NCBI RefSeq assembly: GCF_944321625.1
Contig: NZ_CALUMA010000107.1
Coordinates: 1 to 64,000 of the forward strand
DNA from: an uncultured Slackia sp.
Lineage (GTDB): Bacteria; Actinomycetota; Coriobacteriia; Coriobacteriales; Eggerthellaceae
Length of the DNA stretch: 64,000 nt
Direction: 5' to 3'
Shown here: one piece after another, positions 19,018-23,804 of the stretch
Layout: each line of letters begins with the position of its first letter
Numbering within the stretch: position 1 is the first letter of the stretch
Position numbers and translations under genes: made by a program
Notes under the pieces: generated by a model
The model's database searches: none
What the model was told of the DNA's origin: nothing
The model's input: only the letters and a program-made list of their open reading frames with translations

Positions 19018-19794
19018 CTAAGAAATGTCACCAATAAACGCACGCGTGCGTTCGGATTTCGGATTGCCGAACACCTGGTCAGGTGCTCCTTCCTCGACAA
19101 TCACGCCACCTTCCATGAACACCACGCGGTCGGCCACGTCGCGGGCGAATCCCATCTCGTGCGTCACCACGATCATGGTCATGCCGCCTCGCGCAAGCTC
19201 CTTCATGACATCCAAAACGCCACGCACCAACTCGGGGTCAAGGGCGCTCGTAGCCTCATCGAACAGCATCACGTGAGGGTCCATCGCCAGTGCACGCGCG
19301 ATGGCGACGCGCTGCTGCTGGCCGCCGGAAAGCTCGGAGGGGTAGTGATCCATGCGGTCGGCCAGGCCCACGCGCTCAAGCTGCACCTCCGCCACGCGAG
19401 CCGCCTCTTCCTTGGATCGCTTGAGCACCTTGCGCTGTGCGAGCATCACGTTCTCTTTGGCGGTGAGGTGCGGGAACAGGTTGAAGCTTTGGAACACCAT
19501 GCCCACATGTTCGCGCACCTTATTCAGGTTGGTCTTGGGGTTGGTGATCTCTACGTCTTCGAACCAGATGTGGCCGCTCGTGGGCTCTTCCAGGCGGTTG
19601 ATGCAGCGCAGCATCGTGGATTTGCCCGAACCGGACGGGCCCAGAACAACCACGACCTCGCCGCGATGGACGTCCAGGTCGATGCCTTTGAGCACCTCGG
19701 TTCCGCCGAAGCTTTTGTGCAGGTCCTGAATGCGAACGATGGGCTGTTCGCTGCCCGCCTGCGCAGGCGCATTGGAAATCGTTTCGGTGGTCAT
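19018..19794 (-). CDS. Polar amino-acid ABC transporter, ATP-binding protein
   Basis: 258 residues of the GlnQ/ArtP/HisP group: Walker [11 protein letters not shown] loop [16 protein letters not shown] signature [15 protein letters not shown], Walker [14 protein letters not shown] and switch His in VVTHEMGF. It powers the permease encoded just upstream. An AGGAGAGA box precedes the ATG. The leader-peptide attenuators upstream of the binding proteins suggest arginine or a related basic amino acid as substrate. Confidence 0.95.
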
Positions 19795-19815: not shown

Positions 19816-21189
19816 TTAGAAGTAATCGGGCTGCTTGACTTCGAGCTTGGTGGACGTACCGTCGGTGGCCGGCGTCCAGCTTCCCTTGTCGCTGGAGGAC
19901 GACTTGCCGAAAAGGCCCTTGCCCTTCTTGCTTGACTTCTTGGTCGAGCCCGTCTCCATGCGGCGCGTGATGGCGGTCATGGGCAGCGTCACCACCAGGT
20001 AGAACAGCGCCGCCACGATGTAGGGCGTGATGTTGCCGGTGGCCGCGGTGATGGTCTTGGCGTACATGACCGTTTCCATGATGCCCACGGCGGCAAGCAG
20101 CGAGGTGTCCTTATACAGCGTGATGAGCTCGTTAGTCATGGTGGGAATGACGTTGCGGAACGCCTGCGGGATGATGACGCTCAGCATGGTCTGGGGCGCC
20201 GACATGCCCAGCGAGCGCGCGGCCTCGAACTGGCCCTTGTTGATGGACTGGATGCCGGCGCGGAAGATTTCGCACAGATATGCGCACGAGTTAAGCGCCA
20301 TGACGATGCAGCCCAGCGCGAAGTTGTCGACGTTCACGCCCAGAAGCGGCAGGCCGAAGAACGCGATGTAAATCTGCAGGAACATAGGCGTGCCGCGCAC
20401 GATGTTAACATAGAGCGAGGCGATGGCGCGCAGCGGCAGAAGTTTGGACATGCGCAGCAGCGCCAGCAGGAAGCCCACGACGATGGCCAGCGGGAACGCG
20501 ATGATCACGATGCCCAGTGCCGTGACCCAGCCCTGCGCCACGCTGGGGATGCTCGTCACGATGAGCGTGGGGTCGAAGAACATATGCAGGAAACGGTTGG
20601 AGTTCCATGCCTGCACCCATTCCTGGTCCTCAAGCCACGAGGAAAGCTGCTCGGACTTGCTGAGGCCCGCCACCTGGATTTCGCTCGACGGACCAAGATC
20701 GGACACGGTGCCGTCCGCGTCGGTGATTTGCGTGGATACCGTGAACGTGCCGCCTTCGGTGGGGAAGGTGGCGCCGTACGTTTCAACGAGGAAGGAAAGG
20801 CCGGCGGGCGCGGGCTCGGGGAAGTCGATGTGCATCGTGCCGTCGCCGGGGATGGTGATCTGCGCGTTCAGCTCAACGCGGTCGAGCTCGTCCAGCCCCG
20901 TCACCTTGACGCCGTCGGCGTCGAACTGCAGCCCTTCGGGCATGGTGAGCACGATGGAAGACACGCTTTCGTCCTCGGCGGCCTGGCCACGCCAAGTGAT
21001 GCGCGTTTCTGCGCCGCCCAGAATCTGGTTGCCGCCATCTTCGTTGGGGGCCGCGGTGCACTGCGTAACCTCGAGGGCCTGCGCCTGGCCGGGCACGACG
21101 AGCGAGCCGACGGCGAAAAGCCCAAGAACGAGCGCAAACGCAAGGGCGATGCGCGCGAGCGGAGATGCTTTCGGGGTGGACGTGTTCAT
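19816..21189 (-). CDS. Amino-acid ABC permease with extra N-terminal extracytoplasmic domain
   Basis: 457 residues. After a signal-peptide-like start (ARIALAFALVLGLFAVGSLVV...AQALE) come ~150 residues rich in Thr/Asp/Gly and beta-type patterns, resembling an exported Ig-like or sialidase-like domain and not part of a normal permease. From ~195 the protein is a standard His/Glu/Gln/Arg permease with TM helices, RGTPMFLQIYIAFFG, and the EAA loop EAARSLGMSAPQTMLSVIIPQAF that contacts the ATPase. A charged Lys/Ser tail follows. The domain would sit outside the membrane, beside the binding protein. The family is often fused to a binding protein at this place, but this domain does not look like one. 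Confidence 0.85.
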   Translation of the reverse strand: MNTSTPKASPLARIALAFALVLGLFAVGSLVVPGQAQALEVTQCTAAPNEDGGNQILGGAETRITWRGQAAEDESVSSIVLTMPEGLQFDADGVKVTGLDELDRVELNAQITIPGDGTMHIDFPEPAPAGLSFLVETYGATFPTEGGTFTVSTQITDADGTVSDLGPSSEIQVAGLSKSEQLSSWLEDQEWVQAWNSNRFLHMFFDPTLIVTSIPSVAQGWVTALGIVIIAFPLAIVVGFLLALLRMSKLLPLRAIASLYVNIVRGTPMFLQIYIAFFGLPLLGVNVDNFALGCIVMALNSCAYLCEIFRAGIQSINKGQFEAARSLGMSAPQTMLSVIIPQAFRNVIPTMTNELITLYKDTSLLAAVGIMETVMYAKTITAATGNITPYIVAALFYLVVTLPMTAITRRMETGSTKKSSKKGKGLFGKSSSSDKGSWTPATDGTSTKLEVKQPDYF

Positions 21190-21363
21190 GGTAAGCCTTT
21201 CAATGATGGAAGGGTCGGATGCGGCGATTGGTGCCGCATCGCCGGCGTCGAAGCGCCTCTTGTGCGCGCCGATGTCGAAGATGCGGAAGGGCGGAAGCGC
21301 ATGAAGGCTTCCGCCCGGATTGGAAGGAGCCGTGCGGCATGCCACGCAGCCCCTTGGAAGACG

Positions 21364-22236
21364 TTAATCAGTGGTGCCGAACCACTTCATCTGGATCTCT
21401 TCGTAGGTGCCGTTGTCCTTGAGCTCCTGGAGCGCTTCATTGATGGCGGCGGTCAGGTTGGGGTTGTCCTTGCTCACGGCGATGCCATATTGCTCGCCAG
21501 TGGGGATGGCCTCGACGACCTCGCAGTCCTGATAGGCGTTCAGGATGTAGTAGTCAGCCACGGGCTTGTCCATGACCACGGCCTCAACCTGGCCGGACTG
21601 CAGGGCAGCCAGCACGGCGGTGTACTCGTCGAAGGTCTTGATCTCGGCGTCGGGCGCATTTTCCTTGGCCCAGTCGATGCCGGTGGTGCCGCTCTGGCCG
21701 CCGATAATCTTGCCGGACAGGTCGGCGGAACCGGCGATGTCAGAGCCCTTCTTCACCACGATGCACTGGTTGGAATCCATGATGGGGTCGGTGAAATCAA
21801 CCTCGGCTTCGCGGTCGGGGGTGATGGTGATGCCGGCAGCGGACACGTCGGCGGTGCCGCCAGCAGCGATGGCGGGCACCAGCGCATCAAACTTCATGGT
21901 GGGCAGGTAATTGACCTCAAGGCCCATCTGCTCGGCGATGGCGGTCATCAGGTCGACCTCGAATCCCTCAGGCTGGCCGTCGACCAGGTTCTCAAACGGC
22001 GGGAAGTCGATGGACGCCACAACGGTCAGCTTGCCCTCTTCCACCAGGGTGTAGCTGCCGTCGTCGGTCGCGGCGGCGTCGGTGGACTCGGCGGCCTCGG
22101 TGGTAGCCGAGGTGTCGGCGGAAGAGTCGCCGCCCGAAGAGCAGCCGGCCAGCGCGAACACGGCGCACAGCGAAAGCGCCGCGATCAGGCATAGCAGGAA
22201 CTTAGATAGGTGGTTGGCGTAGGTCTTGGTTTTCAT
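21364..22236 (-). CDS. Amino-acid-binding lipoprotein 1 of ABC transporter
   Basis: 290 residues. Lipoprotein signal with lipobox LAGC (C32), a short Ser/Thr/Ala linker, then a type II periplasmic-binding fold of SBP family 3: GKLTVVASIDFPPFENLVDGQPEGFEVDL, TADVSAAGITITPDREAEVDFTDPI and GGQSGTTGIDWAKEN. It binds a polar amino acid outside the membrane and hands it to the adjacent permease. It is a close paralogue of the gene at 22662 and shares its start MKTKT and lipobox region. It has its own sigma-70 promoter, arginine-rich leader peptide and attenuator. Confidence 0.93.
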   Translation of the reverse strand: MKTKTYANHLSKFLLCLIAALSLCAVFALAGCSSGGDSSADTSATTEAAESTDAAATDDGSYTLVEEGKLTVVASIDFPPFENLVDGQPEGFEVDLMTAIAEQMGLEVNYLPTMKFDALVPAIAAGGTADVSAAGITITPDREAEVDFTDPIMDSNQCIVVKKGSDIAGSADLSGKIIGGQSGTTGIDWAKENAPDAEIKTFDEYTAVLAALQSGQVEAVVMDKPVADYYILNAYQDCEVVEAIPTGEQYGIAVSKDNPNLTAAINEALQELKDNGTYEEIQMKWFGTTD

Positions 22237-22275: not shown

Positions 22276-22320
22276 CTAGAAAAGAACAGCGCCCGTGCGT
22301 TGGTAAACGAACGAGCGCTG
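22276..22320 (-). terminator. Attenuator (intrinsic terminator) before binding protein 1
   Basis: On the minus strand CAGCGCTCGTTCGTT pairs with AACGCACGGGCGCTG (15 bp, one wobble, one mismatch) around TACC, followed by TTCTTTTCT. It lies between the leader peptide and the binding-protein gene. Its 3' arm (GCACGGG) can instead pair with the CCCCGTGC that follows the leader stop codon (22340-22347), forming an antiterminator. Confidence 0.85.
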
Positions 22321-22347
22321 CTTAAGAGACAGTGTTCAAGCACGGGG

Positions 22348-22398
22348 CTAAAGCAGGCTCCTCTTTCGTCGGCGTCGGATGTTGAGGCGTCGCATCAT
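22348..22398 (-). CDS. Arginine-rich leader peptide 1
   Basis: A 16-codon frame, MMRRLNIRRRRKRSLL, with GGGAGG 9 bases before the ATG. Seven of 16 residues are arginine and one is lysine; the codons are CGA CGC ... CGA CGC CGA CGA AAG AGG. Its stop codon directly precedes the sequence able to form an antiterminator. A ribosome stalled on the arginine codons would leave that sequence free, and one reaching the stop codon would cover it. This is the classical logic of amino-acid attenuation, here pointing to arginine. Confidence 0.85.
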   Translation of the reverse strand: MMRRLNIRRRRKRSLL

Positions 22399-22451
22399 GG
22401 TTTGAATCCTCCCTTGGATGCTTCCTTGCTTTAGCGTACTGAAGTATCTGC

Positions 22452-22480
22452 ATTATCGGACACGCCCGGATGAAAATCAA
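22452..22480 (-). promoter_or_regulatory. Sigma-70 promoter of leader peptide 1 / binding protein 1
   Basis: TTGATT and GATAAT separated by exactly 17 bases, 54 bases before the leader ATG. The second binding-protein unit has the same two hexamers and spacing. Confidence 0.75.
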
Positions 22481-22583: not shown

Positions 22584-22619
22584 ATATGCGGTGCCAAGCG
22601 CATTGCCGGCACCGCATAT
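22584..22619 (-). terminator. Terminator after binding protein 2
   Basis: Perfect 12-bp arms (ATATGCGGTGCC with GGCACCGCATAT) and a 12-base loop, followed on the minus strand by TGCATATTTTG. It separates the upstream binding-protein unit from the next promoter. Confidence 0.75.
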
Positions 22620-22661: not shown

Positions 22662-23516
22662 CTACTCCTGGGCGCCGAACCACTTCTCCTCGATCTCGGT
22701 GAAGGTGCCGTCTTCCTGGAGCTCGGCGATGGCGTCGTTGATGGCGGCGGTCAGGTTCGGGTTGTCCTTGCTCACGGCGATGCCGTACTGCTCGCCGGTG
22801 GGGATCTCCTCAACCACTTCGCACTCGTCGTAGGCGGTGTTCACGTAGTAGTCAGCCACGGGCTTGTCCAGCACGACGGCCTCCACCTGGCCGGACTGCA
22901 GGGCGGCGAACACGGCGGTGTACTCGTCAAACGTCACGACCTCGGCGGCGTCGGGCACGTTCTCGTTGGCCCAGTCGATACCGGTGGTGCCGCTCTGGCC
23001 GCCGATGGTCTTGCCGGACAGGTCGGCGGAGCCGGTGATGTCAGAGCCCTTCAGGACCACGATGCACTGGTTGGTGTCGCAGATAGGCGTGGAGAAGTCG
23101 ACCTCTTCCTCCCTTTCGGGGGTGATGGTGAAGCCAGAAACGCCCACGTCAGCGGTGCCGCCTGCGGTGATGGCGGGGATGATGGTGTCGAACTTCATGG
23201 TGGGCAGATAGTTGATTTCAAGGCCAAGCTTTTCTGCGATGGCGGTCATCAGGTCGACCTCGAAGCCTTCGGCCTGGCCGTCGACCAGGTTCTCGAACGG
23301 CGGGAAGTCAAGCGACGCGGCAACGGTCAGCTTGCCCTCTTCCACCAGCGTGTAGCTGCCGTCGTCGGTCGCAGCGGTGTCGGCGCTGTCGGATGCGGTC
23401 TCGGAGGTACCGCCCGAAGAGCAGCCGGCCAGCGCGAACACGGCGCACAGCGATACAGCGGCAAGCAGGCCTAAGAGGAAGGTGGGAAGGCTTTTAGCGG
23501 TGGTTTTGGTCTTCAT
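22662..23516 (-). CDS. Amino-acid-binding lipoprotein 2 of ABC transporter
   Basis: 284 residues, highly similar along its whole length to the downstream binding protein: same MKTKT start, lipobox LAGC (C32), GKLTVAASLDFPPFENLVDGQAEGFEVDL, and GGQSGTTGIDWANENVPD. It belongs to SBP family 3 (polar amino acids). Differences cluster in the linker and in ligand-region text such as VSGFTITPEREEEVDFSTPICDTNQ against AAGITITPDREAEVDFTDPIMDSNQ, so affinities may differ. It has no permease of its own and ends in a terminator, so it probably feeds the shared permease and ATPase downstream. Confidence 0.93.
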   Translation of the reverse strand: MKTKTTAKSLPTFLLGLLAAVSLCAVFALAGCSSGGTSETASDSADTAATDDGSYTLVEEGKLTVAASLDFPPFENLVDGQAEGFEVDLMTAIAEKLGLEINYLPTMKFDTIIPAITAGGTADVGVSGFTITPEREEEVDFSTPICDTNQCIVVLKGSDITGSADLSGKTIGGQSGTTGIDWANENVPDAAEVVTFDEYTAVFAALQSGQVEAVVLDKPVADYYVNTAYDECEVVEEIPTGEQYGIAVSKDNPNLTAAINDAIAELQEDGTFTEIEEKWFGAQE

Positions 23517-23546: not shown

Positions 23547-23588
23547 GAAAAGAAAAACGCTCGGCGTTTCCTGCGGAACAATCGAGCG
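23547..23588 (-). terminator. Attenuator (intrinsic terminator) before binding protein 2
   Basis: On the minus strand CGCTCG pairs with CGAGCG, with an inner GTTCC/GGAAAC stem around GCA, followed by TTTTTCTTTTC. It sits between the second leader peptide and the binding-protein gene. A GGTTTC segment 10-15 bases after the leader stop (23614-23619) could pair with GAAAC of the 3' half as antiterminator, less strongly than in the first unit. Confidence 0.8.
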
Positions 23589-23628
23589 CTGCTGGTAATC
23601 AAGTGTAAAACACGAAACCTCAACAGGC

Positions 23629-23670
23629 TCATCGTCGTCGGCGTCGGAAGCTGTGGCGTCGCATCGTCAT
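23629..23670 (-). CDS. Arginine-rich leader peptide 2
   Basis: A 13-codon frame, MTMRRHSFRRRRR, with AAGGG 7 bases before the ATG. Seven arginines, five of them CGA, including a run of five just before the TGA stop. Layout (promoter, leader, terminator, binding protein) repeats that of leader 1, so the whole regulatory unit was duplicated with the gene. Confidence 0.85.
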   Translation of the reverse strand: MTMRRHSFRRRRR

Positions 23671-23775: not shown

Positions 23776-23804
23776 ATTATCGAATACTTATTCGCAAAAA
23801 TCAA
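23776..23804 (-). promoter_or_regulatory. Sigma-70 promoter of leader peptide 2 / binding protein 2
   Basis: TTGATT and GATAAT with a 17-base spacer, identical hexamers and spacing to the promoter at 22452-22480. The distance to the leader ATG is 106 bases. Confidence 0.75.

Follow-up and report, generated by a model that had tools for sequence, protein, structure and literature searches.

What controls an amino acid ABC transporter whose first gene is preceded by a short, arginine-rich open reading frame (ORF) and an intrinsic terminator? The genes in question lie on the minus strand of a 64-kb stretch of DNA (the window), part of the 2.4-Mb genome of a Slackia sp. (G000). A sequence-only reading of the region had proposed an arginine attenuator, and every element that it named was found on the minus strand in the place given for it (a promoter, a ribosome-binding site, the leader peptide MMRRLNIRRRRKRSLL, a TAG stop codon followed directly by CCCCGTGC, and a terminator containing GCACGGG). 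This leader, which we call leader 1, has an ATG at 22398, 16 codons and a TAG stop codon at 22350-22348, and the promoter spacer, from TTGATT to GATAAT, is 17 nt. Its parts are as follows.

22475..22480, minus strand: promoter -35 hexamer, TTGATT; same hexamer and 17-nt spacing in Slackia equolifaciens and in leader 2 (below)
22452..22457, minus strand: promoter -10 hexamer, GATAAT, kept in S. equolifaciens
22424..22435, minus strand: segment 1, GCTAAAGCAAGG, which pairs with CCTGCTTTAGC at the leader's end in the whole-leader MFE structure
22407..22413, minus strand: ribosome-binding site, GGGAGGA, from the sequence
22348..22398, minus strand: leader ORF, MMRRLNIRRRRKRSLL, with TAG stop; peptide identical in S. 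equolifaciens
22366..22377, minus strand: predicted sensor, the consecutive Arg codons CGA CGC CGA CGA (codons 8-11), from ribosome-constrained folding
22348..22360, minus strand: predicted antiterminator 5' strand, GAGCCTGCTTTAG (last codons and stop), from folding and RNAalifold
22340..22347, minus strand: CCCCGTGC, right after the stop codon, complementary to GCACGGG in the terminator 3' arm
22313..22326, minus strand: predicted antiterminator 3' strand, CTTAAGCAGCGCTC, overlapping the terminator 5' arm, from folding and RNAalifold
22285..22322, minus strand: intrinsic terminator stem-loop, -23.7 kcal/mol, followed by TTCTTTTC, from folding

The terminator stretch folded with z = -5.8; the terminator scan did not list this terminator, owing to its loop and mismatch rules, but folding did show it. 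CTGTCTC and GAGACAG are able to pair around it, and most of GGGGATGAGACAGGGGAT, on its 3' side (22276-22258, minus strand), is unchanged between G000 and S. equolifaciens.

The same arrangement occurs a second time in the window. The neighbouring twin of the binding-protein gene is preceded by a paralogue of leader 1, MTMRRHSFRRRRR (leader 2), which has a promoter and a terminator of its own and matches leader 1 in the order of its parts, its promoter hexamers and the spacing between them.

23799..23804, minus strand: leader 2 promoter -35 hexamer, TTGATT; sequence, compared with S. equolifaciens
23776..23781, minus strand: leader 2 promoter -10 hexamer, GATAAT; sequence, compared with S. equolifaciens
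23781..23794, minus strand: ARG-box-like palindrome CGAATAAGTATTCG between the -35 and -10 hexamers of leader 2, identical in S. equolifaciens
23629..23670, minus strand: leader 2 ORF, MTMRRHSFRRRRR, with TGA stop; sequence, compared with S. equolifaciens
23621..23630, minus strand: predicted leader 2 antiterminator 5' strand, GAGCCTGTTG, from folding and RNAalifold
23584..23594, minus strand: predicted leader 2 antiterminator 3' strand, CAGCAGCGCTC, from folding and RNAalifold
23556..23590, minus strand: leader 2 intrinsic terminator, -14.9 kcal/mol, followed by TTTTTCTTTTC, from folding
22662..23516, minus strand: binding protein 2, a paralogue of binding protein 1, 3' of leader 2; family models and sequence comparison
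22584..22619, minus strand: terminator-like hairpin 3' of the binding protein 2 gene, from the terminator scan
21364..22236, minus strand: binding protein 1 (SBP_bac_3, amino acid ABC transporter), the first gene past leader 1, from family models
19816..21345, minus strand: permease with an extra N-terminal region, from family models
19018..19794, minus strand: ATP-binding protein, GlnQ/TcyN-like, from family models

The permease and ATPase genes follow leader 1 in the same unit as binding protein 1. Because the hairpin at 22584-22619 parts two transcription units, each binding-protein gene would have its own attenuator. The permease has a signal-peptide-like start and ~180 residues ahead of its membrane domain, a region with a weak match to DUF2808, below cut-off.

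Arg-rich short ORFs are common in this DNA, as would be expected if the locus joined by chance a constitutive terminator and an Arg-rich ORF that arose by coincidence in GC-rich sequence. In order-3 Markov sequence ~2.7 Arg-dense short ORFs are expected per 64-kb strand, so that such an ORF is not rare in GC-rich DNA, and the plus strand of the window carries two unrelated ones. When a ribosome-binding site and a terminator were added to the definition, the expectation fell to ~0.28 per strand against two observed in the window, both directly preceding the two tandem binding-protein genes. Arginine accounts for 7 of the 16 residues of leader 1 and 7 of the 13 of leader 2, and CGA makes up 9 of these 14 Arg codons (counted in paralogues, which are not independent), compared with 8.7% of the Arg codons in the long ORFs of the window. 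The duplication with conserved architecture, together with the synonymous-only change and the third case at argGH described below, with its covariation, makes a chance origin hardly credible.

The sequence-only reading had called for a comparison with related genomes. The binding proteins of G000 and S. equolifaciens DSM 24851 share 94-95% identity, and S. equolifaciens carries both leaders, with both peptides identical at every residue. The leader 1 ORF differs between the two species by one change (CGA/AGA, Arg to Arg) and the leader 2 ORF by two; all three are synonymous, whereas the flanks (100 nt before the leaders and the stretch after them) are 69-79% identical. The 26 nt from the leader 1 stop codon onward (22350-22325, minus strand) are unchanged. 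This conservation in a second species settles that leader 1 is a real element.

Beyond these two species the transporter leaders were not recovered. A DNA search of 138 family genomes yielded no further convincing copy, with only weak matches of 20-33 nt elsewhere, and a covariance model (R1) run against 398 class genomes found no convincing leader outside G000 and S. equolifaciens; its matches in two other genomes (G394 and G111) lay inside protein genes and were rejected. No comparable leader was seen upstream of 28 transporter homologues from other species, nor was an Arg leader found upstream of the third binding-protein paralogue or of the ADI-like gene. In five other Slackia species the binding protein-permease operon is retained (65-72% identity), with a single binding protein and without a leader, implying that the transporter leaders are young or have been lost elsewhere. 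The sequence-only reading had held that loss of the Arg run in relatives keeping the transporter would count against it; these five do keep the operon, but it is the whole device that is absent, and the observation is ambiguous.

If leader 1 is an attenuator, its RNA should be able to adopt two exclusive structures according to the position of the ribosome. The RNA downstream of the ribosome was folded for every codon position of both leaders in both species. Antiterminator energies were calculated with the A site where the Arg run begins and the terminator 3' arm not yet made. In leader 1, the codons and stop past the Arg run pair with the terminator 5' arm (GAGC-CUGCUUUAG : CUUAAGCAG-C-GCUC; the matching strand of GAGCCTG in this helix is CAGCGCTC), and leader 2 forms the equivalent helix with its own 5' arm (GAGC-CUGUUG : CAGCAG-C-GCUC). 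The antiterminator was worth -17 to -20 kcal/mol in leader 1 and about -14 to -19 kcal/mol in leader 2, with -4 to -7 kcal/mol left in the four leaders when the ribosome stood at the stop codon. In folding of all four leaders the antiterminator and the terminator excluded each other, and a stall in the Arg run released the antiterminator; in leader 1, a stall with the A site at codons 8-10 freed it, and a ribosome at the stop codon covered it. RNAalifold, unprompted, returned the same 5'-arm helix as the consensus of the four leaders, among which covariation is slight. When spacers were shuffled, a switch as large was seen in 1-7% of trials (the real one was larger in 93-99%), and the antiterminator duplex of the S. 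equolifaciens leaders stood only at the 10% tail of random segments. According to this folding model, the shared antiterminator is the last leader codons paired with the terminator 5' arm, a classical trp-like layout.

The two leaders differ in how the switch would be won. In leader 2 the antiterminator outcompetes the terminator at equilibrium, the terminator probability rising from 0.01-0.11 for a ribosome entering the Arg run to 0.92 at the stop codon in both species. In leader 1 the terminator beats the nested antiterminator at every ribosome position (Pterm >= 0.92 in G000), so that the antiterminator could prevail only through kinetic trapping or a pseudoknot. Leader 1 also has a 5' untranslated strand, segment 1, that pairs with the antiterminator 5' strand, and no clear counterpart was seen in leader 2. 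The GCTAAAGCA portion of segment 1 is identical in both species; by its predicted pairing, segment 1 can act as a protector, such that the antiterminator would be blocked if the leader were not translated.

The sequence-only reading had taken CCCCGTGC to be the antiterminator, left free by a stalled ribosome to sequester GCACGGG in the terminator 3' arm. This pairing is strong in leader 1 (-18 to -20 kcal/mol, matched or beaten by 0.2-0.3% of random segments), and it lies within the 26 nt that are unchanged between the species; however, no pairing of this type was found in leader 2 of either species, and the 5'-arm helix, which is common to the four leaders, can form earlier in transcription. 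We consider it unlikely that the CCCCGTGC pairing is the main antiterminator. It may instead be added to the 5'-arm helix in leader 1, where a pseudoknot combining the two came to about -26 versus -24 by a rough estimate; such a pseudoknot, as a hypothesis, might lie behind the unchanged 26 nt.

In our view leader 1 is very probably a transcription attenuator of the trp/his type, specific for arginine and mediated by the ribosome. G000 would then have at least three of them (before the two binding-protein genes and argGH). With enough Arg-tRNA, a translating ribosome would pass the Arg codons to the stop codon and cover GAGCCTGCTTTAG, the terminator would form and transcription would end before the binding-protein gene. 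When Arg-tRNA is short, we infer that the ribosome would stall on uncharged arginine tRNA in the CGA-rich run (codons 8-11), leaving GAGCCTGCTTTAG free to pair with the terminator 5' arm as soon as the arm is made, and RNA polymerase would then read on into the binding-protein, permease and ATPase genes. In leader 1 the extra pairing of CCCCGTGC with GCACGGG may also hold the 3' arm.

The best support that the sensor reads arginine comes from argG leaders, which share their function with arginine-making genes. G000 has a third Arg-rich leader, unlike the other two, upstream of argG; it reads MAIRNAQQLSFRRQGRRFNLRRARMVSAVRMG, and a terminator follows ~61 nt past its stop codon.

G000:C120:33900-34600: locus L064, the G000 argG leader region, with Arg-rich leader and terminator (L065-L074 are the loci of the other Slackia genomes)

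An Arg-rich leader and terminator precede argG in 10 of the 11 Slackia genomes that have the gene. The peptides follow the consensus SFRRQ-RR--LR and vary at the other positions, and they too use CGA pairs. When the argG leaders were aligned, the codons past the Arg run formed a helix with the terminator's 5' side, in which 95.7% of cells pair and three of the seven pairs change on both sides (GC/AU, GC/UA and CG/UA). The covariation of this structure was 0.35, compared with 0.04-0.17 for slid partners (controls somewhat flattered by our having named the structure after inspecting the same alignment), and it was reached in 0 of 500 shuffles. Three findings now back the claim that the Arg codons set a ribosome-mediated attenuator: the paralogous leader, the recurrence of the leaders in S. 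equolifaciens and the covariation among the argG leaders of ten species. We read leaders 1 and 2 and the argGH leader as an arginine-specific, ribosome-mediated attenuation regulon.

The argG leaders also bear on whether the nascent chain, rather than the Arg codons, is what matters. Translation can slow at basic tracts, and one known leader, SpeFL, is a sensor of ornithine; by analogy, a basic chain (RRRRKR or RRRRR) might stall the ribosome alone or together with arginine, ornithine or a polyamine and so work the same RNA switch. The conservation of both transporter peptides at every residue between two species would fit such an arrest peptide. The argG leaders, however, share their Arg codons while most non-Arg residues vary, and the choice of CGA, an uncommon codon, is in keeping with tRNA sensing, making peptide arrest decidedly improbable.

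A different possibility is that ArgR, acting at the promoter, exerts the main control, with the leader contributing no more than basal termination. Every Slackia searched has an ArgR homologue, which scores below the curated cut-off, and the ARG-box-like palindrome in the leader 2 promoter contains the sole occurrence of the YGAATANNTATTCR site in the G000 genome by pattern search. There is, however, no such site in the promoter spacer of leader 1, and control by ArgR would leave the Arg runs and alternative helices unexplained; as the main control we think it very improbable. The palindrome suggests a possible ArgR operator at leader 2, where ArgR may add a second layer to the proposed attenuation.

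Which substrate the transporter carries is a separate matter. The sequence-only reading had predicted arginine, and we likewise infer it from the leader codons. The binding protein matches Lys/Arg/Orn, Gln and cystine family models, all below cut-off. Among the arginine models (TIGR01096, ArtJ, ArtI and ArgT) the best score was that of TIGR01096, 162 bits against a cut-off of 256. Alignment to binding proteins of solved structure did not point to one substrate. The accompanying argument, that arginine serves these bacteria as an energy source, is weak, in that the switch would induce on arginine shortage and no canonical arcA scored over the cut-off in G000. A switch that opens when Arg-tRNA is scarce suits a role in scavenging for protein synthesis. 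The argG and argH genes are present in 11 of 12 Slackia, and argC gave no match over the cut-off in G000. One G000 cluster (L060, C17:9000-15800) encodes a DDAH/arginine-deiminase-like hydrolase, a 2-hydroxyacid dehydrogenase, a carbamate kinase and ArgR.

Leader-peptide attenuation of the classic type has been described for Trp, His, Leu, Ile/Val, Phe and Thr. Like the trp, his, leu and phe attenuators, the Slackia leaders have an ORF in which the codons of the regulating amino acid form a run, an antiterminator that takes the terminator 5' arm and an intrinsic terminator before the operon; they differ in that the amino acid is arginine, the controlled genes encode an importer (and argGH), leader 1 adds the 3'-arm pairing and the protector strand lies in the 5' untranslated region rather than in the leader ORF. 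The fungal arginine attenuator peptide (CPA1/arg-2) is also an upstream peptide reporting arginine, but it is eukaryotic and translational and is arrested by arginine itself. The arginine T-boxes of Firmicutes read arginine supply via tRNA charging, but by binding tRNA directly and with no leader ORF, and Rfam families including the T-box covariance model gave no match in the leaders. A survey of Actinobacteria that names these T-boxes described trp, trpS and leuS leaders with alternative hairpins, as in Slackia, which belongs to the same phylum, and reported that arginine operons had no conserved RNA element among the genomes that it covered (PMC1262725). The nearest arginine case that we found is the Salmonella orf34/speF leader, in which two consecutive Arg codons act through Rho and RNase G on the ornithine decarboxylase gene (PMC6386406); compared by description, in both systems the Arg codons of a short upstream ORF report arginine supply and choose an RNA structure, but in Slackia the Arg codons form a run, the terminator is intrinsic and the genes past the leader serve uptake or synthesis. 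The open-access papers searched yielded no arginine attenuator with an intrinsic terminator and nothing relevant on argG leader attenuation, and an earlier description elsewhere is possible. We rate the Slackia leaders as a known kind of device with a new amino acid specificity. They would add arginine to the amino acids with classic attenuation, place an ABC importer and the argGH genes of gut Actinobacteria under the control of a single simple sensor and give a substrate prediction for the transporter, and the tandem copies and ten argG leaders would form a natural series on how such a switch is built.

Related sequences precede argG in other Eggerthellaceae, where the region holds either a leader or an argR gene ending in CGA-rich RLRRR. 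Stand-alone leaders with this ending occur in further genera of the family, and in at least 10 other genera the gene directly 5' of argG is argR, whose product ends in RLRRR, encoded with CGA codons (L109, L119, L132, L134, L135 and other loci). Matches of the form MAGDNTIMIAAES...RLRRR before argG were at first read as leaders and were rejected as such on being recognised as ArgR C termini. The Slackia ArgR gene is not next to argG, and its C terminus differs from RLRRR in the two species examined. A family-wide arginine attenuation of argGH is possible but doubtful, with stand-alone leaders in Slackia, RLRRR leaders in several genera and the last codons of argR serving as the leader in at least 10; if it were true, one gene would encode both repressor and attenuator. 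At most of these argR or RLRRR ends there is a GACGAC-stop-GTCGTC hairpin with a T-rich tail.
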